Source: Mycolicibacterium aromaticivorans JS19b1 = JCM 16368
Lineage (GTDB): Bacteria; Actinomycetota; Actinomycetes; Mycobacteriales; Mycobacteriaceae
Length of the DNA: 64,000 bases
Assembly: GCF_000559085.1 (NCBI RefSeq)
Contig: NZ_JALN02000001.1
Span: 2,294,001-2,358,000, forward strand
Direction of reading: 5' to 3'
Part shown: positions 1 to 9,717 of the stretch, one piece after another
Position numbering within the stretch: position 1 is the stretch's first letter
How the letters are laid out: each line of letters opens with the position of its first letter
Position numbers and translations under genes: made by a program
The notes under the pieces: model-generated
Told to the model about the DNA's origin: nothing
Databases searched by the model: none
The model's input: the letters and a program-made list of their open reading frames with translations, nothing else

Positions 1-828
1 CACTGGGTATTCGCATTCAACGGCGTCGTCACCCCGGACGCAGTCGGCGGCTGGATTGCCAACAACCTCAAGGCAATTGACTTCGCCGGTGGCACAGCGG
101 TGCATATCAACGCCGGTGCAGCCGCTCTGGCGGTCGCCATAGTGCTCGGCAAGGGCGCCAGCTGGGGCAAGCTGCGCAAGCCGCACAACGTCCCGCTGAC
201 ACTGCTCGGCGCCGGACTGCTGTGGGCCGGCTGGTATGCCTTCAACGGCGGTTCGGCTCTGGCCGCGGGCAATTCGGCGGCCATCGTCATGGTCACCACC
301 TTCGTCGCAACCTGCGCCGCCACGCTCGCCTGGCTGGCAGTGGAGAAGTTCAAAGACGGCCACGTCACCGGCGTCGGTGCGGCGGCGGGTGCCATCACCG
401 GCCTGGTCGCGATCACCCCGGCCTGTGGTTCGGTGACGCCGGTCGGCGCGATCATTCTCGGCCTCGTCGCGGGCGCCATCTGTCCGTTCGCCGTGGGCCT
501 CAAAGAGAAGTTCGGCTATGACGATTCGCTCGACGTTGTCGGCGTGCACCTCGTCGGTGGTGTCATCGGCACCCTGCTGATCGGCTTCCTGGCCAGCGAC
601 ACAATGCCGAACAAGGTCAACGGCTTCTTCTACGGCGGCGGTTTCGACCAGCTGTGGCGACAAGCCGTGGCGGCCGGTGCGGTGATGATCTATTCGTTCG
701 TTATCGCGTTCGTCATCGCATGGGCCATCAAGAAGACGATGGGTATCCGCATCTCCTCCGAAGAAGAGGAGAAGGGTATCGACACCCACGTCCACCGCGA
801 CCCGGCGTACGAGCTCGAGTACGCCTGA
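1..828 (+). CDS. amt: Ammonium transporter Amt, 5' truncated by the window edge
   Basis: Channel protein of the Amt/MEP/Rh family, which conducts ammonium across the inner membrane. The frame is open from base 1, so the N-terminal part lies outside the window; 275 residues are present. The twin pore histidines are visible: the first in TAVHINAG (about residue 35 of the fragment) and the second in VGVHLVGG (about residue 183). Several hydrophobic membrane spans alternate with short loops, and the C-terminal tail is charged (EEEEKGIDTHVHRD), as in the cytosolic tail that contacts PII proteins in this family. It is followed by a glutamine-synthetase homologue and glutamate-synthase-like subunits, which fits ammonium uptake feeding assimilation. 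No PII gene (glnB/glnK) is seen downstream, where it would be in the glnK-amt arrangement. Family assignment is secure; a second amt paralogue elsewhere cannot be excluded. Confidence 0.95.
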   Translation, partial: HWVFAFNGVVTPDAVGGWIANNLKAIDFAGGTAVHINAGAAALAVAIVLGKGASWGKLRKPHNVPLTLLGAGLLWAGWYAFNGGSALAAGNSAAIVMVTTFVATCAATLAWLAVEKFKDGHVTGVGAAAGAITGLVAITPACGSVTPVGAIILGLVAGAICPFAVGLKEKFGYDDSLDVVGVHLVGGVIGTLLIGFLASDTMPNKVNGFFYGGGFDQLWRQAVAAGAVMIYSFVIAFVIAWAIKKTMGIRISSEEEEKGIDTHVHRDPAYELEYA

Positions 829-919
829 TGCGGACTCGAGCCGGGCGTGGTACCTCCTTCCCCCGCCCGGCTCGAGCCCCTCGCGCCACCCCCATTCATC
901 AAAGAACTTGTTGGAGAAC

Positions 920-2227
920 ATGTCTGCCACCCTCGCTGAGCTGGCCGAGGCCTCAGCAACCAAGTTCATCCTCGCGCTGTTCGTCGACCTCCGCGGGAAG
1001 CCCTGTGCCAAGCTGGTTCCCGTCGAGGCCGTCGATCTACTGGCGACCGAGGGTGTCGGCTTCGCCGGATACGCCGTCGGTGCAATGGGTCAGGAGCCCA
1101 AAGACCCTGACCTCATGGCAATGCCCGACCCCGAGTCGTTCACCCCGATCCCGTTCATCAAGGACGGCCTGGCGATCGTGCACTGCGATCCGCACGTCGA
1201 GGGCCGGCCGTGGCCGTATGCGCCGCGCGTCATCCTCAAGTCGCTGATCCAGCGGGCTGCCGATGCAGGCTTCGAGCCCTGGGTCGGCGCGGAAGTCGAA
1301 TACTTCCTGCTGACCCGCGGCGCGGACGGCACACTGGCCACCGCCGACACTGCCGACACCGCGGCGCAGCCGTGTTACGACGCGCGCGGTGTGACCCGGA
1401 TGTACGACCACCTCACCGCGATCTCGACCGCGATGAACACCCTCGGCTGGTCCAACTACGCCAATGACCACGAAGACGGCAACGGCCAGTTCGAGCAGAA
1501 CTTCCAATTCGCCGACGCGCTGACCACAGCCGACCGGGTGGTGACACTGCGCTACCTGCTGTCGATGATCGCCGCCGAGCGCGGCATGGTGGCCACGTTC
1601 ATGCCCAAACCCTTCTCCGACCGGACCGGGAGCGGCCTGCATCTGCACCTGTCGCTGACTTGTGGGGGCACACCGGTGTTCCCCGAGGAGTCCGACGATC
1701 GCGGGCTGGGACTGTCGCCGACCGCGTATGCGTTCATCGGCGGCATCCTCGACCACGCCTGCGCCCTGCAGGCCGTCGTCGGGCCAACGGTCAACTCCTA
1801 CAAGCGAACCGGAGCACTGACGACGGCCTCCGGGGCCTCCTGGGCTCCGCGCCTGCCCACCTACGGCGGCAATGACCGCACCCACTACATCCGGGTGCCG
1901 GACTCTCAGCGAGTGGAGCTACGCGGCGGCGACGGCTCGGCCAACCCGTACCTGGCCATCGCGGCCGCGCTCGGCGCCGGTATCGACGGCATCAAACGCA
2001 GCACCGACCCCGGCGCGATCGGCAACACCGACGGCCGCACCGCCCTGCCGCCCACCTTGCTGCACGCCGTCGAAGAGTTCGAGGGTGACCCGGTGGTCAC
2101 CGGTGTGCTCGACACCGTAGGCGATGGGGTTGCCAGTTACTTCGCCGGTATCAAGCGGGACGAATTCTTCGCCTACCACAGCGCGGTCAGTCCGTGGGAA
2201 GTCGACCAGTACCTGACCGCATTCTGA
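920..2227 (+). CDS. glnT: Type III glutamine synthetase (GlnT) / gamma-glutamylmethylamide synthetase-like
   Basis: An ATP-dependent glutamate-amine ligase of the glutamine-synthetase superfamily, 435 residues if the ATG at 920 is used. A TTG at 908 in the same frame is an alternative; GGAG at 913-916 lies only 3 nt from the ATG, so the start is not settled. The N-terminal beta-grasp part carries VDLRGKPCAKLVP, the catalytic barrel shows GAEVEYFLL and FMPKP followed by GSGLHLHLSL (metal and glutamate binding), and the R-V-E-L-R-G-G-D stretch near residue 335 is the usual adenine/active-site segment. Members of this subfamily make either glutamine or gamma-glutamylmethylamide, and the sequence alone does not tell which amine is used. 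The following three subunits are the partners that process gamma-glutamylmethylamide in the N-methylglutamate pathway, so the methylamide activity is a real possibility. Confidence 0.85.
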   Translation: MSATLAELAEASATKFILALFVDLRGKPCAKLVPVEAVDLLATEGVGFAGYAVGAMGQEPKDPDLMAMPDPESFTPIPFIKDGLAIVHCDPHVEGRPWPYAPRVILKSLIQRAADAGFEPWVGAEVEYFLLTRGADGTLATADTADTAAQPCYDARGVTRMYDHLTAISTAMNTLGWSNYANDHEDGNGQFEQNFQFADALTTADRVVTLRYLLSMIAAERGMVATFMPKPFSDRTGSGLHLHLSLTCGGTPVFPEESDDRGLGLSPTAYAFIGGILDHACALQAVVGPTVNSYKRTGALTTASGASWAPRLPTYGGNDRTHYIRVPDSQRVELRGGDGSANPYLAIAAALGAGIDGIKRSTDPGAIGNTDGRTALPPTLLHAVEEFEGDPVVTGVLDTVGDGVASYFAGIKRDEFFAYHSAVSPWEVDQYLTAF

Positions 2228-2247
2228 CCCCCGAGGAAGGAACAACC

Positions 2248-3141
2248 ATGTGTGGGATCGTGGGTCTGCACCTGCGCGACCCCCAGCTCTACCCCCGGCT
2301 CGGTGAACTGCTGACCGGCATGCTGTGTGAAATGTCGGACCGGGGAAGCGATTCCGCCGGAGTAGCCGTCTACGGTGATCCACGCTGGTCACCGCCGGGG
2401 AAGGGCACCGTCTCGGTGCTCGACGTCGACGACAGCCCCGACCAGATGGCCGAGGCGCTCCATGCGGCGCTCGGCGAGGTATCGGTGCACCGCGTCGACG
2501 AAACACTGTTGGTGTCGGCCGATGTCGCAGCCGAGACGCTGCATGCGGCGATCACGGCGCACTACCCGCATGCGCTGATCGCGGGGTTCGGCGCAAATGT
2601 GGCTGTGCTCAAGGGAGTCGGGCATCCGAAAGCCCTCACCGAGGCATGGGGACTGGCTCATGCGCAGGGCTGGCAAGGGGTGGGTCACACCAGGATGGCC
2701 ACCGAGTCGGCAGTGATACCGGCCGGCGCACATCCCTACGCGGTCGGTCCGGACCAGTGCCTGGTCCACAACGGATCATTCGCCAACCACGCCACCATCC
2801 GTCGCGACCTCCGGGCCCGGAGTGTCGTCTTCGACAGCGAGAATGACACCGAAGTCGGTGCGCGCTTCGTGGCCGACCAGCTGGCCCGGGGCCGCGACGT
2901 CGAGACCGCGCTCAAGGAGTTGTGTGCCACCTTCGACGGCTTCTACACGCTGCTGGTGTCCAACCACGACTCGTTCGCCGTTGTCCGGGACGCCATCGCC
3001 TGCAAGCCGGCGGTGATCGCCGAGACCGACGAGTGGGTGGCAATGGGCAGCGAATACCGCGCGCTGGCAGGACTTCCCGGCGTCGAGAAGGCGGTCATCT
3101 GGGAGCCAGAACCAGAGGTGGTGTACGCATGGACGAGGTGA
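2248..3141 (+). CDS. glxB: Class II glutamine amidotransferase subunit (GlxB / MgsA type)
   Basis: A 297-residue Ntn-type amidotransferase corresponding to the glutaminase domain of glutamate synthase as a free subunit. The start at 2248 is chosen because it exposes the catalytic cysteine directly after the initiator Met (MCGIVGL) and has a good ribosome site, AGGAAGG at 2234-2240, 7 nt upstream. Further family signatures are GHTRMAT with the following H-P-Y loop and a VHNGS segment, which hold the glutamine. The enzyme should release ammonia or an amine from a gamma-glutamyl amide and pass it to the FMN subunit. The stop codon overlaps the next gene region, consistent with one transcript with the amt-glnT genes. 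In N-methylglutamate synthase the equivalent subunit is MgsA. Confidence 0.88.
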   Translation: MCGIVGLHLRDPQLYPRLGELLTGMLCEMSDRGSDSAGVAVYGDPRWSPPGKGTVSVLDVDDSPDQMAEALHAALGEVSVHRVDETLLVSADVAAETLHAAITAHYPHALIAGFGANVAVLKGVGHPKALTEAWGLAHAQGWQGVGHTRMATESAVIPAGAHPYAVGPDQCLVHNGSFANHATIRRDLRARSVVFDSENDTEVGARFVADQLARGRDVETALKELCATFDGFYTLLVSNHDSFAVVRDAIACKPAVIAETDEWVAMGSEYRALAGLPGVEKAVIWEPEPEVVYAWTR

Positions 3142-3815
3142 TGACCTTCGATTTGGCGTCCACACCGCTGCGCGAGGTCAACGCCGCCCTACACGCGCCG
3201 GGCCTGTCCGGTGAAGTCGCGATCACCAACCCCGCCGGCGCACACAATGTCGCGGTCGGCGTCGACGCCCCGATCCGAGTCCGGATCGACGGTCACGTCG
3301 GCTACTACGCCGCTGGGATGAACAAGCAAGCGGAGGTCATCGTCGACGGCAACGCGGGGACCGGAGTGGCCGAGAACATGATGAGCGGCACCGTCTGGGT
3401 CAAGGGCAATGCGTCCCAGTCCGCCGGCGCCACCGCACACGGCGGCCTGTTGGTGATCGAAGGCGATGCCGCTGCGCGCTGCGGGATCTCGATGAAAGGA
3501 GCCGACATCGTGGTCGGCGGCAGCGTCGGACACATGAGCGCGTTCATGGCCCAGGCGGGACGACTGGTGATCCGCGGCGATGCCGGTGAGGCACTGGGTG
3601 ATTCGATCTACGAGGCCCGCCTGTACGTTCGCGGCGAGGTCGCCTCGCTCGGGGCGGACTGCATCGCCAAGGAGATGCGCGCCGAGCACCACGAAGAACT
3701 CAGCCGCCTGCTCAAGGCCGCCGGATTCGAGGACGATGACACCAGCTCCTACACCCGCTACGGCTCGGCACGCCAGCTATACCACTTCCACGTCGACAAC
3801 ACAGAAGTGTACTGA
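3129..3815 (+). CDS. glxC: Glutamate synthase alpha-subunit C-terminal (GXGXG) domain protein (GlxC / MgsB type)
   Basis: A 228-residue protein made almost entirely of the right-handed beta-helix that forms the C-terminal domain of glutamate synthase. The repeating pattern is visible: GYYAAGMNKQ, DGNAGTGVAENM, KGNASQSAGATAHGG, GDAAARCGISMKG, GGSVGHMSAFMAQ, RGDAGEALGDSIYEA, each turn one helical rung. It is thought to be structural and to couple the glutaminase and FMN subunits. ATG 3129 overlaps the 3' end of glxB by 13 nt and has GAGG at 3115-3118; a second ATG at 3141 overlaps the glxB stop by one base (TGATG) and would remove four residues. The protein ends at 3815, one base before the TTG start of glxD, so the three subunits are translationally coupled. 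Confidence 0.87.
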   Translation: MDEVMTFDLASTPLREVNAALHAPGLSGEVAITNPAGAHNVAVGVDAPIRVRIDGHVGYYAAGMNKQAEVIVDGNAGTGVAENMMSGTVWVKGNASQSAGATAHGGLLVIEGDAAARCGISMKGADIVVGGSVGHMSAFMAQAGRLVIRGDAGEALGDSIYEARLYVRGEVASLGADCIAKEMRAEHHEELSRLLKAAGFEDDDTSSYTRYGSARQLYHFHVDNTEVY

Positions 3816-3816
3816 A

Positions 3817-5151
3817 TTGACATACGCAGAAGACGACCGCGCCCGCCTCGGCCTGCGCGAGTCAGCAACCTTCGACCGGGCCACGATCGCCGGCATCCAA
3901 CGAGCCGCCGACACCGGTATCTACGACATCCGCGGCTGGGGCGCCAAACGCGCACTCCCCCACTTCGACGACCTGCTGTTCCTCGGCGCATCGATGTCGC
4001 GCTACCCGCTGGAGGGCTACCGCGAGCGATGCGGTACCGACGTCGTACTCGGCGACCGACACGCCAAACACCCACTGCACCTGGACATCCCGGTGACAAT
4101 CGCGGGCATGTCATTCGGCGCGTTGTCCGGGCCGGCCAAGGAGGCGCTCGGTCGCGGCGCCAGCGAGGTCGGCACGTCGACCACCACCGGCGACGGCGGT
4201 ATGACCCCGGAAGAACGCGGACAGTCGAAAACTCTCGTCTACCAATACCTTCCGTCGCGGTACGGGATGAACCCCGACGATCTCCGCAAAGCCGACGCCA
4301 TCGAGGTCGTGCTCGGCCAGGGCGCCAAGCCCGGTGGCGGCGGAATGCTGCTGGGACAGAAGATCTCCGAACGGGTGGCCGGTATGCGGACACTCCCCGA
4401 AGGCATCGACCAGCGCTCCGCCTGCAGGCATCCGGACTGGACCGGGCCAGACGACCTGACCATCAAGATCAACGAACTGCGCGAGCTCACCGACTGGGAG
4501 AAGCCGATCTACGTCAAGGTCGGCGCCACCCGCACCTACTACGACGTGAAATTGGCGGTGGCGGCGGGCGCTGACGTAGTCGTCGTCGACGGTATGCAGG
4601 GGGGCACCGCGGCCACTCAGGACGTGTTCATCGAGCATGTCGGCATCCCCACGTTGGCCGCGGTTCCACAAGCGGTGCAGGCACTCTCCGAACTCGGCGT
4701 GCATCGCAAGGTGCAGCTGATCGTGTCGGGCGGAATTCGGACCGGGGCCGACGTCGCCAAGGCGATGGCCCTGGGCGCCGACGCGGTGGCGATCGGTACC
4801 GCGGCGCTGATCGCGCTGGGGGACAACGACCCGAAGTACGCTGCCGAATACGAAAAGCTCGGTAGCGCAGCCGGTTTCTACGACGACTTCCAAGACGGTC
4901 GCGACCCGGCCGGTATCAGCACCCAGGATCCCGAGCTTGCGGCCCGACTCGACCCGATCGAGGGCGGTCGCCGCCTGGCCAATTACCTGCGGGTGCTGAC
5001 CATGGAGGCCCAGACCATCGCGCGCGCGTGCGGTAAGGCACACCTGCTGCACCTGGAACCCGAAGACCTCGTCGCGGTGACCATCGAGGCCGCCGCGATG
5101 GCGCGGGTGCCGCTGGCGGGTACGTCGTGGATTCCCGGAGCGGGGCTGTGA
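3817..5151 (+). CDS. glxD: FMN-binding glutamate synthase-like subunit (GlxD / MgsC type)
   Basis: A 444-residue TIM-barrel protein equivalent to the central plus FMN domain of glutamate synthase. The start is the TTG at 3817 (MTYAEDDRARLGL), one base after the glxC stop; the longer open frame runs back through glxC and is not real. Visible barrel segments are PVTIAGMSFGALSG, the TTGDGGMTPEER loop, GQGAKPGGGGMLLGQK, PIYVKVGATR, a VVVDGMQGGTAATQ loop and the phosphate-binding end LGADAVAIGTAAL, all in the order found in GltB. It should transfer the amide nitrogen or alkylamine onto 2-oxoglutarate. It overlaps the next gene by 4 nt (GTGA). The product, glutamate or N-methylglutamate, is not decided by the sequence. 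Confidence 0.9.
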   Translation: MTYAEDDRARLGLRESATFDRATIAGIQRAADTGIYDIRGWGAKRALPHFDDLLFLGASMSRYPLEGYRERCGTDVVLGDRHAKHPLHLDIPVTIAGMSFGALSGPAKEALGRGASEVGTSTTTGDGGMTPEERGQSKTLVYQYLPSRYGMNPDDLRKADAIEVVLGQGAKPGGGGMLLGQKISERVAGMRTLPEGIDQRSACRHPDWTGPDDLTIKINELRELTDWEKPIYVKVGATRTYYDVKLAVAAGADVVVVDGMQGGTAATQDVFIEHVGIPTLAAVPQAVQALSELGVHRKVQLIVSGGIRTGADVAKAMALGADAVAIGTAALIALGDNDPKYAAEYEKLGSAAGFYDDFQDGRDPAGISTQDPELAARLDPIEGGRRLANYLRVLTMEAQTIARACGKAHLLHLEPEDLVAVTIEAAAMARVPLAGTSWIPGAGL

Positions 5152-6335
5152 CCGAGACCGCCGAAGTCGTCATCGTCGGCGGCGGAATCGAGGGGTGCGC
5201 CGCCGCCTGGGCATTGAGCCAACGCGGAATCACCGATGTCGTTGTCCTCGAACGTAATACCGTGGGCTCCGGGATGACCGGAAAGTCCAGCGGTATCGTG
5301 CGCTGCCACTACGGAGTGAGCTCGCTGGCCGCGATGGCCACCGTCGGCCTGGAGGTGTTCGAGAAAGCCCATGAGATCTTCGGCGACGACATCGGGTTCC
5401 GCCAAACGGGATATGTCGTCGGCGTCGGTGAACCCAACGTCGGCTCCCTGCGGAGCAGCATGGCCGCACAGCGCGCCGTCGGTGTGCAGACCGAAGAGAT
5501 CGATGCCGCCGAGGTGGCCCGACTGTGGCCGTGTGCCGACCTGTCGCCATTCGCCGCGTTCGGTTGGGAGGCGCGTGGCGGGTACGGCGACGCCTACCAG
5601 ACCGCACAGGCGTTCGCCCTCGCCGCCCGGGCGAGCGGTGTACGAATCCGGCAGGGCGCCAGCGTCACCGGACTGCTGACCGACGGTGACACCGTCACCG
5701 GGGTGCGCTTGGCCGACGGCACGCAAGTCAGCGCGGGTAGCGTCGTGGTCGCCACCGGAGTCTGGACCCAGCCGTTTCTGGCGCCCTACGGAGTCGACGT
5801 GCCGATCCGGGTGGTCCGCGAGCAGATTGTGATGATCTCGCCCGGTGTCGATCTGGGACCGGTGCCGGTGTTCTCCGATCTGGTGTCACTGCAATACGTA
5901 CGTCCCGAGGTCGGCGGCGATGTGCTGTTCGGCAACAGTGACCTTTCCGACGTGCTGACCGCCGATCCGGACGATTACCTAAACCGGGCCACCGAAGACT
6001 TCATCGATCTCACCGTCGACAAGGTCGGCACCCGTTTCCCCGGCTTCACCGCCGCCGCGATCACGTCGAGCTACGCCGGGTGTTACGACGTCACACCGGA
6101 TTGGAACCCGGTCATTTCCGCCAGCGGCCGCGACGGGCTGTTCGTGGCTGCCGGGTTCAGCGGTCACGGGTTCAAGATCGCGCCTGCCGTCGGGCGCCTG
6201 GTAGCCGACCTCCTTGTCGACGGCCGCAGCAGTGACCCTCGGATACCCGAGACCGATTTCCGGCTGTCCCGCTTCGCCGAGGGGGAGTTACTGAAGAGCC
6301 CGTATCCGTATGTGGGTGCGGGGCAGATGCGATAG
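5148..6335 (+). CDS. FAD-dependent amine oxidoreductase, DAO / sarcosine oxidase beta (SoxB)-like
   Basis: A 395-residue flavoprotein of the D-amino-acid oxidase fold. The start GTG 5148 overlaps the glxD stop (GTGA). The N-terminal dinucleotide site is VIVGGGIEGCAAA (residues about 8-20) followed by an acidic end of the second strand (VVVLERN). SGIVRCHYG and the C-terminal GFSGHGFKIAPAVG are typical of the sarcosine oxidase beta / N-methylglutamate dehydrogenase branch. It would oxidise a secondary amine or amino acid to an imine, releasing an aldehyde or oxo acid. No SoxA, SoxD or SoxG partner is adjacent, so it is either a stand-alone enzyme or uses subunits coded elsewhere. Its place behind the glxBCD genes suggests that it acts on their product or supplies their amine. 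Confidence 0.83.
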   Translation: MTETAEVVIVGGGIEGCAAAWALSQRGITDVVVLERNTVGSGMTGKSSGIVRCHYGVSSLAAMATVGLEVFEKAHEIFGDDIGFRQTGYVVGVGEPNVGSLRSSMAAQRAVGVQTEEIDAAEVARLWPCADLSPFAAFGWEARGGYGDAYQTAQAFALAARASGVRIRQGASVTGLLTDGDTVTGVRLADGTQVSAGSVVVATGVWTQPFLAPYGVDVPIRVVREQIVMISPGVDLGPVPVFSDLVSLQYVRPEVGGDVLFGNSDLSDVLTADPDDYLNRATEDFIDLTVDKVGTRFPGFTAAAITSSYAGCYDVTPDWNPVISASGRDGLFVAAGFSGHGFKIAPAVGRLVADLLVDGRSSDPRIPETDFRLSRFAEGELLKSPYPYVGAGQMR

Positions 6336-6342
6336 TGCACTT

Positions 6343-6984
6343 GTGACCGATCTGCTCCGCAACCAATCGGGAACCGCCCGCGACCGCGACCCGCACGAGC
6401 CGGTCGCGGACGTGGAGTTCGAGACCGCGATCGCCCGCAATGTGCGGCAGCTACGCCAGCAGCTGGGGTTCTCCGTCGCCGACATGGCGAGCAGGGTCGG
6501 GATCTCGAAGGCGATGATGAGCAAGATCGAGAACGTGCAGACCTCGCCGAGCCTGTCCACTCTGGCTTTGCTGGCCAAGGGTTTCGACGTACCGGTGAGC
6601 ACGCTGTTCCGTGGCGCCGACGTGGAGCGGCAGGCGGCCTTCGTCAAGGCGGGTACCGGGGCGCGGATCGTGCGCAACGGCACGAGGGCCGGCCACGAGT
6701 ACGAATTGCTCGGATCGCTGCGCGGCGAGCACAAGCGACTGGAATGCCTGCTGGTCACCCTGTCGGAGAAGAGCACGACCTATCCCCTGTTCCAGCATCC
6801 CGGCACCGAGTTCATCTACGTGCTCGAGGGCGTCATGGACTACGCCCACAGCCGCTCGGTGTACCGGCTGCATCCCGGCGATTCGCTGCAGATCGATGGT
6901 GAGGGCGCGCACGGTCCCGCGGATCTGATCGAAGTGCCGATCCGATTCCTGTCGGTTATCGCGTTTCCTGACTCCCAGGTCTAG
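6343..6984 (+). CDS. XRE-family regulator with C-terminal cupin domain
   Basis: A 213-residue transcription factor. A Cro/C1-type helix-turn-helix occupies roughly residues 28-85 (LRQQLGFSVADMASRVGISK, then MMSKIENVQTSPSLSTLALLA), and a cupin barrel follows at about 120-210 (HPGTEFIYVLEGVMDYA, HPGDSLQIDGEGAHGP). This layout is that of PuuR-like regulators, where the cupin binds a small effector such as an amine or amino acid. GTG 6343 is preferred because it lies 7 nt after the stop of the oxidoreductase; the ATG at 6310 would overlap that gene. As the last gene of the operon it is likely the local regulator of the amt-to-oxidoreductase genes. Its 3' end overlaps the convergent secreted-protein gene by 29 nt. 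Confidence 0.85.
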   Translation: MTDLLRNQSGTARDRDPHEPVADVEFETAIARNVRQLRQQLGFSVADMASRVGISKAMMSKIENVQTSPSLSTLALLAKGFDVPVSTLFRGADVERQAAFVKAGTGARIVRNGTRAGHEYELLGSLRGEHKRLECLLVTLSEKSTTYPLFQHPGTEFIYVLEGVMDYAHSRSVYRLHPGDSLQIDGEGAHGPADLIEVPIRFLSVIAFPDSQV

Positions 6985-7834
6985 CCGACCGGCCCTTGCC
7001 GCCCGAGGCCACCTTTGGGGCGCCGGCGCCGGCGGCCTTGCGCGACGCGTTGGGCGGCTTCGCAGCGCTCGGTGCGACGCTCTGCTGCGCACCGGTGACC
7101 GACGCCGACCGTCGGCTCTGACCGACAGCCGGATTCGTGGCCTCCGACGGCGAAGCGACCGCGGACGGAGCGGACCGCTGGGGCGTGGTGGCAGCGACGG
7201 GCTGCGCGGGCTGCGCGGGAGGCGTTATCTGCAGCGCTTTGGCGATCGACGGCCCGAATGACAGCAGGTAGCCGAGCGGCCCCGGATTCAGCAGTCCGAA
7301 GGCCAGCTGAAAGAGCGGGGTGGAGCAGCAATTCAACGTGGTGTTGAGGTAGACCGCGGGCGCATCGATGAACGCCTGCAACACGGTCTCCGGGGTGGAC
7401 GGGTATTTGGCGGTGTCGGCGATCAACTGCGCGATCATGACGCCGGGAGCGATGAAGGGGCCGATCAAGCTGAGCGGCGCCATCACCGCGAGGGTGGCCA
7501 TCACGCCGGCCGCCGCCGCGGCGTGATCACCCATGGTCTGCACGATCTTCAGGGGGGTGCCGCCATCCTGCCCGACGAGCCAGTGCGAATAGGTGGTGAA
7601 GTTTTCCGCCACCTGGGTCAAGATCGGCGCGGGTGGGTAATTGACGACCATCGACGCGAGATTGGCGATATCGGCCTGGACATTCTCCTGCAGGGTCTGC
7701 CACGCGCCGGTGAGGACGACCGGGACGGCACGCGTAGCCGGCTGCGGATCGGTGGGTAGTGGCGCCAGCGCGATGGTCGCGGCCGCCGTCAGCGACAGCC
7801 CGGTCGCGAGCATGGAGCGAACGCTCAGTTGCAC
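6956..7834 (-). CDS. Mycobacterial secreted protein with Ala/Pro-rich tail, function unknown
   Basis: A 292-residue protein with an N-terminal export signal (MQLSVRSMLATGLSLTAAAT, cleavage likely near residues 25-36). Residues about 40-200 are hydrophobic-helical and contain APGVMIAQLIADT and a CC pair in LNTTLNCCSTPLF; this resembles the paralogous PE-PGRS-neighbour and secreted families found in many copies in mycobacteria, but I recognise no catalytic motif. From about residue 205 to the end the sequence is low-complexity Ala, Pro, Ser, Thr and Gly with basic residues, likely a disordered tail. It converges on, and overlaps by 29 nt, the XRE regulator. The function is not known from the sequence. 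Confidence 0.7.
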   Translation of the reverse strand: MQLSVRSMLATGLSLTAAATIALAPLPTDPQPATRAVPVVLTGAWQTLQENVQADIANLASMVVNYPPAPILTQVAENFTTYSHWLVGQDGGTPLKIVQTMGDHAAAAAGVMATLAVMAPLSLIGPFIAPGVMIAQLIADTAKYPSTPETVLQAFIDAPAVYLNTTLNCCSTPLFQLAFGLLNPGPLGYLLSFGPSIAKALQITPPAQPAQPVAATTPQRSAPSAVASPSEATNPAVGQSRRSASVTGAQQSVAPSAAKPPNASRKAAGAGAPKVASGGKGRSARPGSQETR

Positions 7835-8215: not shown

Positions 8216-9097
8216 TCAGGCCGCTACCGCACCAGAATTGGACTCACCGATGCCGCGGCTGGTCTGCCCGTCTATGGCTACCGGGACATCGCCGGCCAGG
8301 GTCACCCGGTGCATCACACGACGCTGGTCGTCGTAGTCGTCGACAGCGCGATGCTGGGTGGCGCGGTTGTCCCAGATCGCGACGTCACCGGGCTGCCAAC
8401 ACCAACGAATCGCGTTCTCCGGCTGAGTGATTCGACGCTGTAGCAACTCGATGAGTGTCGCCGAGTCATGACTGTCCAGACCGACGAGTTGGCGAGCGAA
8501 GCCGCCGAGCAACAGTGCGCGCTGACCTGTCTCGGGATGTACCCGCACCACCGGGTGCTCGGTCCGGAAATCCGGGGCGACGAACGCCCGAGCCTCCACG
8601 GCGCCGGCCTTAGCCCCAGGGGCCGCGTAGTCGAACCGGTTGCTGTGCACGGCCCACACGTTGTCGGCAAGTGCGCGCAACGGCACGGGCAGCGCGTCGT
8701 ATGCGGCCACGGTCGAGGCCCACAGAGTGGAGCCGCCATAGCTGGGCAGCGTCACCGCGCGCAGGATCGACGCCTTGGGATAGTCGGCTGTGAAGGTGAC
8801 GTCGGTATGCCATTGGGTCGCCTTGCCCCATTCGGAATCGATCGGCTGGATCAGCGGCTTGTCGGCGTCGGCGTGCCGGATGGTCGGGTGCCCAACGGGT
8901 GTACCCAGGAGCCGGCCGAAGGCTTCCTGCTGCTGGTCGTCGAGATGGTGCTGTCCCCGGATGAATACCACCTTGTAGGTCAGCAGCGCTTGATAGATCT
9001 CGTCGGCGATTGTTGCGTCGAGGTCGCCACCGAGCCGGACGCCGTCGATCGTGGCGCCGATCTTGCTGCCGAGTCTGGTCACCGAGATCGCGGTCAT
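8216..9097 (-). CDS. TauD/TfdA-family Fe(II)/2-oxoglutarate dioxygenase (alkylsulfatase-like)
   Basis: A 293-residue non-haem iron dioxygenase, which couples decarboxylation of 2-oxoglutarate to hydroxylation of the substrate. The facial triad is visible: His97 and Asp99 in QWHTDVTF and His249 in [11 protein letters not shown], with Arg264 in VMHRVTL as the 2-oxoglutarate salt bridge. The family also contains the mycobacterial alkylsulfatase Rv3406, and length and motifs fit, so desulfonation or desulfation of an organic sulfur compound is the leading guess; taurine or another substrate is equally possible. It is divergent from a TetR gene (65 bases between starts) whose two palindromic sites lie in that gap, so it is probably repressed by it. 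Confidence 0.88.
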
Positions 9098-9153: not shown

Positions 9154-9171
9154 TGTAGTCGGATGACTACA
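9154..9171. promoter_or_regulatory. Candidate TetR operator 2 (perfect palindrome over the tetR start)
   Basis: TGTAGTCGGATGACTACA, a perfect 7-bp inverted repeat with a 4-base centre. It covers the ATG of the TetR gene (9163), so binding would block initiation of that gene directly. This indicates autoregulation, and a very short or absent 5' leader. Confidence 0.75.
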
Positions 9172-9717
9172 GGGGGTGCAAGGGGGCGTGACGAGGTAGT
9201 GGCTGTGACTTTGGCCGCCGCCGCCGATCTGTTCGCCGAACGTGGGCCGGCTGCGACCTCTATTCGTGACATCGCCGCCAAAGCCGGCGTCAACCATGGC
9301 CTGATTCACCGGCACTTCGGGTCCAAGGACCGCCTGATCGGCGCGGTACTCGACCATCTCGGCGCGCAGCTGGCCGACATGCTGGCAGCCGGGGCTGCCG
9401 GCAGTGAGGTCGAGGCGGCGATCGATCGGCAGCTGCGGGTGATCGCCCGGGCCAGCTTGGATGGCTACCCCGCGGGTCAGCTTCAGACCCGGTTTCCCAA
9501 CGTGTCCGACCTCATCGAACAGATGCGGGCGCGTTACTCCACCGAGCATGCGGCGCGGCTCGCGGTCGCGCATATCAACGCACTCCAACTCGGCTGGCGC
9601 CTGTTCGGAGATTTCCTGCGGGCCTCGGCCGGGTTGGACGACCTCACCGACGAGGAACTGGCGCAATCGATAGCCGGTGCCATCGCTGCGATGACCAAGT
9701 CCGGTCAGAAGCAGTGA
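9163..9717 (+). CDS. TetR-family transcriptional regulator
   Basis: A 184-residue repressor-type protein. The N-terminal helix-turn-helix reads AADLFAERGPAATSIRDIAA then AGVNHGLIHRHFGSKDRLIG (residues about 18-60), the standard TetR DNA-reading head, and the rest is a helical ligand-binding core. The ATG at 9163 lies inside a perfect palindrome that is likely its own operator. It is divergent from the TauD-like dioxygenase, which is the obvious target. The ligand is unknown. Confidence 0.9.
   Translation: MTTGGARGRDEVVAVTLAAAADLFAERGPAATSIRDIAAKAGVNHGLIHRHFGSKDRLIGAVLDHLGAQLADMLAAGAAGSEVEAAIDRQLRVIARASLDGYPAGQLQTRFPNVSDLIEQMRARYSTEHAARLAVAHINALQLGWRLFGDFLRASAGLDDLTDEELAQSIAGAIAAMTKSGQKQ

Follow-up and report, generated by a model that had tools for sequence, protein, structure and literature searches.

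Introduction

The N-methylglutamate pathway of Proteobacteria combines a GmaS ligase, the three-subunit N-methylglutamate synthase MgsABC and the heterotetrameric N-methylglutamate dehydrogenase MgdABCD, with its SoxB-, SoxD-, SoxA- and SoxG-like subunits. For mycobacteria, Gma and MgsABC were proposed in 2015 in Mycobacterium sp. 141 and 155, with MgdABCD at a separate place (PMC5023230), and in M. smegmatis the genes MSMEG_6259-6264 are annotated, in this order, as amt1, glnT, an amidotransferase, an FwdC-like protein, a member of the glutamate synthase family and an oxidoreductase, with no amine pathway given for them in the available parts of the accounts (PMC3662644, PMC4617892, PMC4222082). 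Here we consider an operon of the same kind at the start of a stretch of 64,000 nt (the window) from Mycolicibacterium aromaticivorans JS19b1 = JCM 16368, described as a soil mycobacterium (GCF_000559085.1, NZ_JALN02000001.1, positions 2,294,001-2,358,000 of the forward strand; G000 C1:2294001-2358000 in our labelling). It codes for an Amt channel, a GmaS-like ligase, the trio GlxB-GlxC-GlxD, an FAD enzyme of the DAO family and an XRE-cupin regulator. In our view the operon probably serves nitrogen scavenging by a variant of the N-methylglutamate pathway in which the lone FAD enzyme takes the last step. The initial annotation had suggested an N-methylglutamate-type amine pathway in a mycobacterium; this stands as the best reading, and such a pathway in mycobacteria had been put forward in 2015. 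What is probably new is the last enzyme, a single flavin enzyme apparently replacing the usual four-part one.

With the proteobacterial pathway, the operon shares a GmaS-family ligase, an MgsABC-type trio, Amt and XRE-cupin neighbours and a link to DmmABC; it differs in having the single FAD enzyme where MgdABCD is found there, and in its ligase, whose identity to five proteobacterial GmaS/GlnT proteins is no more than 39-42% and which has Ala in place of Gln175. The islands of Mycobacterium sp. 141 and 155 hold the same kind of ligase and Mgs genes, whereas the last step is given there to MgdABCD elsewhere, the DAO-family enzyme being unmentioned in the parts covered (PMC5023230). The annotated product order of MSMEG_6259-6264 is that of the window. 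The parts of the glutamine synthetase-glutamate synthase system (GS-GOGAT) are also homologous, but the FMN subunit in the window lacks the full set of [3Fe-4S] cysteines and the ligase is of the GmaS type.

The synthase-type trio

The initial annotation had read GlxB-GlxC-GlxD as the three-subunit layout of the MgsABC synthase, and profile matches, sequence identities and gene order bear this out. The window GlxD is 74-81% identical to five proteobacterial GlxD/MgsC proteins, one of which, from Aminobacter (L014), lies in an operon with mgs, gmaS and the genes for all four sarcosine-oxidase-like subunits of MgdABCD. Its identity rises to 88% with the GlxD of Mycobacterium sp. 141 (P0077) and to 91% with the copy on a plasmid of Candidatus Mycobacterium methanotrophicum.

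In glutamate synthase, the cysteines of the [3Fe-4S] cluster carry electrons. The three cysteines occur together in 0 of 87 aligned GlxD sequences, where the corresponding positions read DFD (37), DWD (29), DYD (9), CYD (7), CYC (2), DFC (2) and EWD (1), while all three are present in L015 and L016, the two large GltB proteins of the host; a further sequence, L018, probably in a wrong frame, was excluded from this comparison. Since exchanging the amine of glutamate for methylamine needs no net electrons, the missing cluster is in keeping with an N-methylglutamate synthase. An ordinary GS-GOGAT was rejected because the full set of Fe-S cysteines is missing from the FMN subunit. Two gammaproteobacterial GlxD proteins (L066 and L088) retain two of the three cysteines, possibly as remnants.

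The ligase

The score of the window ligase against TIGR03105, the model named type III glutamate--ammonia ligase, lies well above the curated cut-off (608.7 against 469.6 bits), a membership that leaves its substrate unsettled. The family also takes in RhGmaS and a second, different ligase of the host, and the name was rejected as proof of ammonia use because this second ligase passes the model with other pocket residues. The latter (L004; G000:C1:4532605-4533630, L004 1111-2538) scores 560 bits and carries Ser at 175 and Asp at 188.

Against the reference residues of RhGmaS, as given in the accessible part of PMC7948447, the alignment places Ala in the window ligase at Asp50' and Trp at the flap Glu; the catalytic Asp177, Glu186 and Arg312 of RhGmaS are kept, and six of the seven residues of the amine pocket match, Q175 being Ala. 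In a careful tree of 32 sequences (30 cluster ligases and two host paralogs), for which the program warned of long branches, the actinobacterial ligases form a clade with support of 100/100, sister to the alphaproteobacterial GmaS clade at 98/95 and with the gammaproteobacterial clade adjacent. A quick tree of 35 sequences (the 30 and five host paralogs) gives the same sister fork a support of 86 and places L004 between the gammaproteobacterial clade and the other two. The best PDB match of an alphaproteobacterial-type ligase is RhGmaS, a characterised methylamine ligase, and that of a gammaproteobacterial-type one is 9qur, whose chain is named glutamate-methylamine ligase. Thus, the earlier claim of a GmaS-like ligase holds on both its residue signature and its place in the tree that had been called for, where it did not group with the true glutamine synthetases.

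The FAD enzyme

The neighbourhoods of glxD were compared in 44 actinobacterial and 36 proteobacterial loci, the best 80 of a longer scan list, each covering up to 9 kb on either side of GlxD and less where a contig ends; the counts are not independent, since L037 and L009 are one record and L023 and L051 one species. SoxB-, SoxD- and SoxA-type subunits of MgdABCD are present in 0 of the 44 actinobacterial loci and a DAO-family FAD enzyme in 40, of type 1, as in the window, in 28 and of type 2 in 12. Among the proteobacterial loci, 29 of 36 carry a SoxB-like MgdA and none a type-1 enzyme; two (L080 and L098) have a distant DAO protein in addition to SoxB. In Nocardia and relatives the DAO gene precedes that of the ligase or is some kilobases away.

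Type 1 (32 sequences, SH-aLRT support 98), the actinobacterial type 2 (12 sequences, 100) and SoxB (100; 10 of the 30 available sequences taken) form separate clades in a quick tree. The second clade, found near glxD in Streptomyces and others, is monomeric sarcosine oxidase-like, its example L041 matching monomeric sarcosine oxidases in the PDB. In the numbering that we assume for monomeric sarcosine oxidase, Arg52 and Lys348 presumably bind the substrate carboxylate, and the corresponding Arg and Lys are kept in 32/32 type-1 sequences. At the positions of Lys265, His269 and Cys315 type 1 has Leu, Ser and Gly, in an alignment that is gapped near Lys265; these three residues are also absent from the 10 SoxB sequences and are kept in 12, 10 and 12, respectively, of 14 type-2 sequences. 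Their absence suggests that the type-1 enzyme is a dehydrogenase rather than an oxidase. The best PDB match of the window enzyme is the 1y56 chain deposited as sarcosine oxidase, which we take to be a beta subunit from the L-proline dehydrogenase complex of an archaeon. Where the 120 proteins listed carry a source name, it is a generic one, such as sarcosine oxidase subunit beta, glycine/D-amino acid oxidase, or FAD-binding or NAD(P)/FAD-dependent oxidoreductase.

The likeness to SoxB noted by the initial annotation is real, though it does not extend to orthology with MgdA, as the enzyme falls in a separate clade and no SoxD or SoxA partners were found. SoxD was not found in the host genome, and was detected in both of two positive-control plasmid records with known SoxD. 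As MgdABCD was sought (SoxD in the host genome; SoxB, SoxD and SoxA in the actinobacterial loci, with SoxA, SoxB and SoxG not sought genome-wide) and not found, the operon is not filed as a canonical member of the N-methylglutamate pathway. In the literature covered, seen in part and with subscription journals mostly outside the search, no paper was found that assigns the oxidation of N-methylglutamate to a single DAO protein in Actinobacteria. We lean slightly towards a broader view, in which Actinobacteria would have swapped the heterotetrameric N-methylglutamate dehydrogenase for single FAD proteins at least twice (the SoxB-like type 1 and the monomeric sarcosine-oxidase-like type 2), making a compact, GlnR-driven operon for scavenging nitrogen from methylamine and dimethylamine.

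Co-occurrence with the FAD enzyme and dimethylamine monooxygenase

In a census of 148 genomes of the genus, the host included, GlxD and the DAO enzyme are each present in 56 and together in 55, and the two lone cases (one with GlxD only, one with DAO only) are genomes of 89% and 70% completeness. A second association is with DmmABC, the dimethylamine monooxygenase that makes methylamine: DmmA is found in 37 genomes of the census, namely 34 of the 56 with GlxD and 3 of the 92 others. The pattern extends beyond the genus. A class-wide draw of 394 genomes holds 33 with GlxD and 23 with DmmA, 17 of them shared (17/33 against 6/361), and after 26 members of the genus, counted from the listed rows, are set aside, DmmA remains in 9/23 GlxD genomes and 5/345 others. 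A phylum draw under a looser limit that includes distant forms of 52-57% found GlxD-like proteins in 19/296 genomes.

The genes for DmmA, DmmB and DmmC of the host are adjacent at about C1:568260-570742, some 1.7 Mb from the operon. Closer linkage is seen elsewhere, with a Dmm gene (HODM subunit) near the operon in 8 of the 44 actinobacterial loci and all three subunits in 5. In the relative G432, a single strand carries, inside 14 kb, an EutQ-like gene and two Dmm sets together with the genes from the ligase to DAO, the Dmm sets being upstream of the latter; SoxD was not found in that genome. Another genome, G311, has two GlxD-DAO copies (on C38 and C57), and DmmA lies no more than 8 kb from one of the two. 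Small EutQ-like cupins also stand beside Dmm genes at L042 4120-4494 and L108 2604-2984; such cupins near methylamine genes are noted in the accessible part of PMC5023230.

Probable control by GlnR

A putative GlnR box, TCTACGTAACAGAAACA, lies about 75 bases before amt and fits the consensus AC/T-n9-AC reported in the available part of PMC3662644. Among the 10 amt promoters examined, from 13 loci, TAACAGA is found in 10/10, GTAACAGAAAC in 8/10 and the stricter full 17-base pattern in 3/10. A search for the pattern inside the window (3 matches against 4.5 expected) is uninformative, because the promoter lies outside it. In M. smegmatis, as far as the sources are available, MSMEG_6259-6264 appear at 5- to 16-fold in a table of GlnR-dependent genes on nitrogen starvation (PMC4222082), a GlnR ChIP peak is given at MSMEG6259 (PMC3662644), and four of the six genes (6259-6261 and 6263) are up under nitrogen limitation (PMC4617892). 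Orthology to these genes rests on gene order, product names and the asd-like gene upstream, recognised by eye in L008 and corresponding to msmeg_6256. By analogy, the operon is probably controlled by GlnR in the host as well. The XRE-cupin protein, earlier proposed as the sensor, is indeed a frequent partner (37/44 actinobacterial and 30/36 proteobacterial loci), but the control itself would probably lie with GlnR.

Gene organization and neighbouring genes

All the genes named by the initial annotation are present and tightly coupled (Table 1), as judged from open reading frames (ORFs), profile matches and junction sequences. The amt gene begins 426 bases upstream of the window, its full ORF being L008 9575-10828, and is separated from the ligase gene by 91 bases. 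From the ligase on, all genes are on one strand, with gaps of at most 20 bases and two overlapping junctions: 20 bases to the amidotransferase, then a TGATG overlap, a 1-base gap, a GTGA overlap and a 7-base gap. For the XRE-cupin gene a start at 6343 looks likelier than one at 6310. This layout sustains the proposed co-transcription, and the recurrence of the identical gene order in mycobacterial loci such as L023-L026 shows that the arrangement is not due to chance. An amt gene (at least 35% identity) is found in 20/44 actinobacterial and 13/36 proteobacterial loci.

Table 1. Genes of the operon and its immediate neighbours, in window coordinates
Feature	Position	Strand	Basis
amt, 3' part; ammonium (methylammonium) channel	1..828	+	PF00909, 266 bits
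GmaS-like type III glutamate-amine ligase	920..2227	+	TIGR03105, 608.7 bits; pocket residues; tree
MgsA/GlxB-type class II amidotransferase, Cys2 kept	2248..3141	+	PF13522, PF13537; MCGIVGL start
MgsB/GlxC-type GXGXG protein	3141..3815	+	PF01493; TGATG overlap sequence
MgsC/GlxD-type FMN glutamate-synthase core without [3Fe-4S] cysteines, TTG start	3817..5151	+	PF01645, 301 bits; alignments
DAO-family FAD enzyme (type 1)	5148..6335	+	PF01266, 221 bits; tree; residues; co-occurrence
XRE-cupin regulator	6343..6984	+	PF01381, PF07883; start codon picked by eye
Secreted-looking Ala/Pro-rich protein	6956..7834	-	
TauD-family dioxygenase	8216..9097	-	taurine dioxygenase model, 241 bits (cut-off 313)
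TetR gene	9163..9717		

For the Ala/Pro-rich protein right after the operon, L023 and L051 were the only loci with relatives under the clustering limit applied; the dioxygenase beyond it, followed by the TetR gene, scores below the cut-off of the taurine dioxygenase model. Further afield, an Acinetobacter plasmid (L013 3803-12359) has two amt genes and an XRE gene adjoining glnT-GATase-GXGXG-GlxD, with DAO and Sox genes not detected in the stretch. The plasmid of Candidatus M. methanotrophicum (L009 8950-14444) carries ligase, Mgs and DAO genes beside integrase and transposase genes, amt being absent from the stretch. Near the operon in Nocardia, Rhodococcus and others, ten loci in all, a gene for an M20-family hydrolase recurs; the only such protein scanned, from L042 (10176-11516), is an allantoate amidohydrolase.

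The proposed pathway and its alternatives

From the gene content, residues, clades, co-occurrence and GlnR-like box, we infer a sequence of reactions in which Amt would admit methylammonium or ammonium, and the ligase would use ATP to couple methylamine, or a near relative, to glutamate. The three-part MgsABC-type enzyme would pass the amine on to form N-methylglutamate, which the FAD enzyme alone would oxidise to glutamate and an aldehyde (formaldehyde). GlnR would switch the operon on under nitrogen starvation, and part of the methylamine may derive from dimethylamine via the DmmABC encoded elsewhere in the genome.

Several points weigh against this pathway. We know of no assay of the enzymes proposed for the operon. 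The fork that unites the alphaproteobacterial, gammaproteobacterial and actinobacterial ligases without L004 is weak in the careful tree (70/32). A DAO gene was not found within the stretches examined in four of the 44 actinobacterial loci (L036, L047, L061 and L064). DmmA was not detected in 22/56 GlxD genomes of the genus, three genomes have DmmA without GlxD, and relatedness is ignored in all the co-occurrence tests. The remaining points against it, namely the growth test in M. smegmatis, the change at Q175 and the SoxD counts, also bear on particular alternatives and are given with these.

It is possible, if unlikely, that the FAD enzyme acts on an unrelated substrate such as sarcosine, proline or D-amino acids, with N-methylglutamate oxidised by SoxBDAG or not at all, an alternative that overlaps the other readings of the ligase. 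The match to 1y56 would agree with this, as would the part of PMC5023230 available, where genes at a separate place are given as MgdABCD in two strains of Mycobacterium. SoxD, present in 14/148 genomes of the genus, is commoner in those with GlxD (13/56 against 1/92), so that some of these may use MgdABCD. Against it, 43 of the 56 GlxD genomes have no detected SoxD while 55 have the DAO enzyme, and the type-2 DAO clade, distinct from type 1, is also found near glxD, in Streptomyces among others.

Rather doubtful is the same pathway acting on a larger substrate (ethanolamine or ethylamine, for instance) to give an N-alkylglutamate cleaved by the FAD enzyme. Position 175 of the amine pocket is Ala in 44/44 actinobacterial-type and Gln in 41/41 proteobacterial ligases (sequences from 85 of 87 loci, that of L055 being short and without the first two positions), and so constant a substitution could mark another amine. 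Its weight is reduced because clusters linked to Dmm, a link that points to methylamine, share the Ala; the Ala of the glutamine synthetase 8oow at the same place means that it need not imply a bigger substrate, though R, F, G, S and Q stand there in the five host paralogs. In the accessible part of PMC4222082, methylamine at 10 mM gave no growth of M. smegmatis, and growth on ethanolamine was GlnR-dependent. The test may be insensitive, because urea failed too although urease activity was measured, yet it is the nearest experiment; the ethanolamine growth may come from other enzymes. EutB was not found in the host genome by a search that, among 14 control genomes, detected it only in E. coli.

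Improbable, finally, is a specialised high-affinity GS-GOGAT for ammonium, in which the ligase would make glutamine and GlxBCD turn it into glutamate: Amt in front of the operon, GlnR control in M. smegmatis alongside other ammonium genes (in the parts of the sources available) and the family name of the ligase speak for it, but GlxD lacks the set of electron-carrying cysteines, none of the seven operon proteins matches a GltD-type family (not sought genome-wide), the ligase has the GmaS signature in place of the ammonium-site Asp and flap Glu, and the family name covers L004 and RhGmaS too. Overall, an amine pathway is better supported than one for ammonium.

Implications

If the operon does encode this form of the pathway, a function would follow for glnT and the genes around it in the GlnR regulon of mycobacteria. 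For the operon's genes, 'type III glutamate--ammonia ligase' would be a misleading name, as would 'glutamate synthase domain protein'. The missing enzyme would likewise receive a name, as a single-subunit N-methylglutamate dehydrogenase, and many soil Actinobacteria could draw nitrogen from methylated amines without being methylotrophs.

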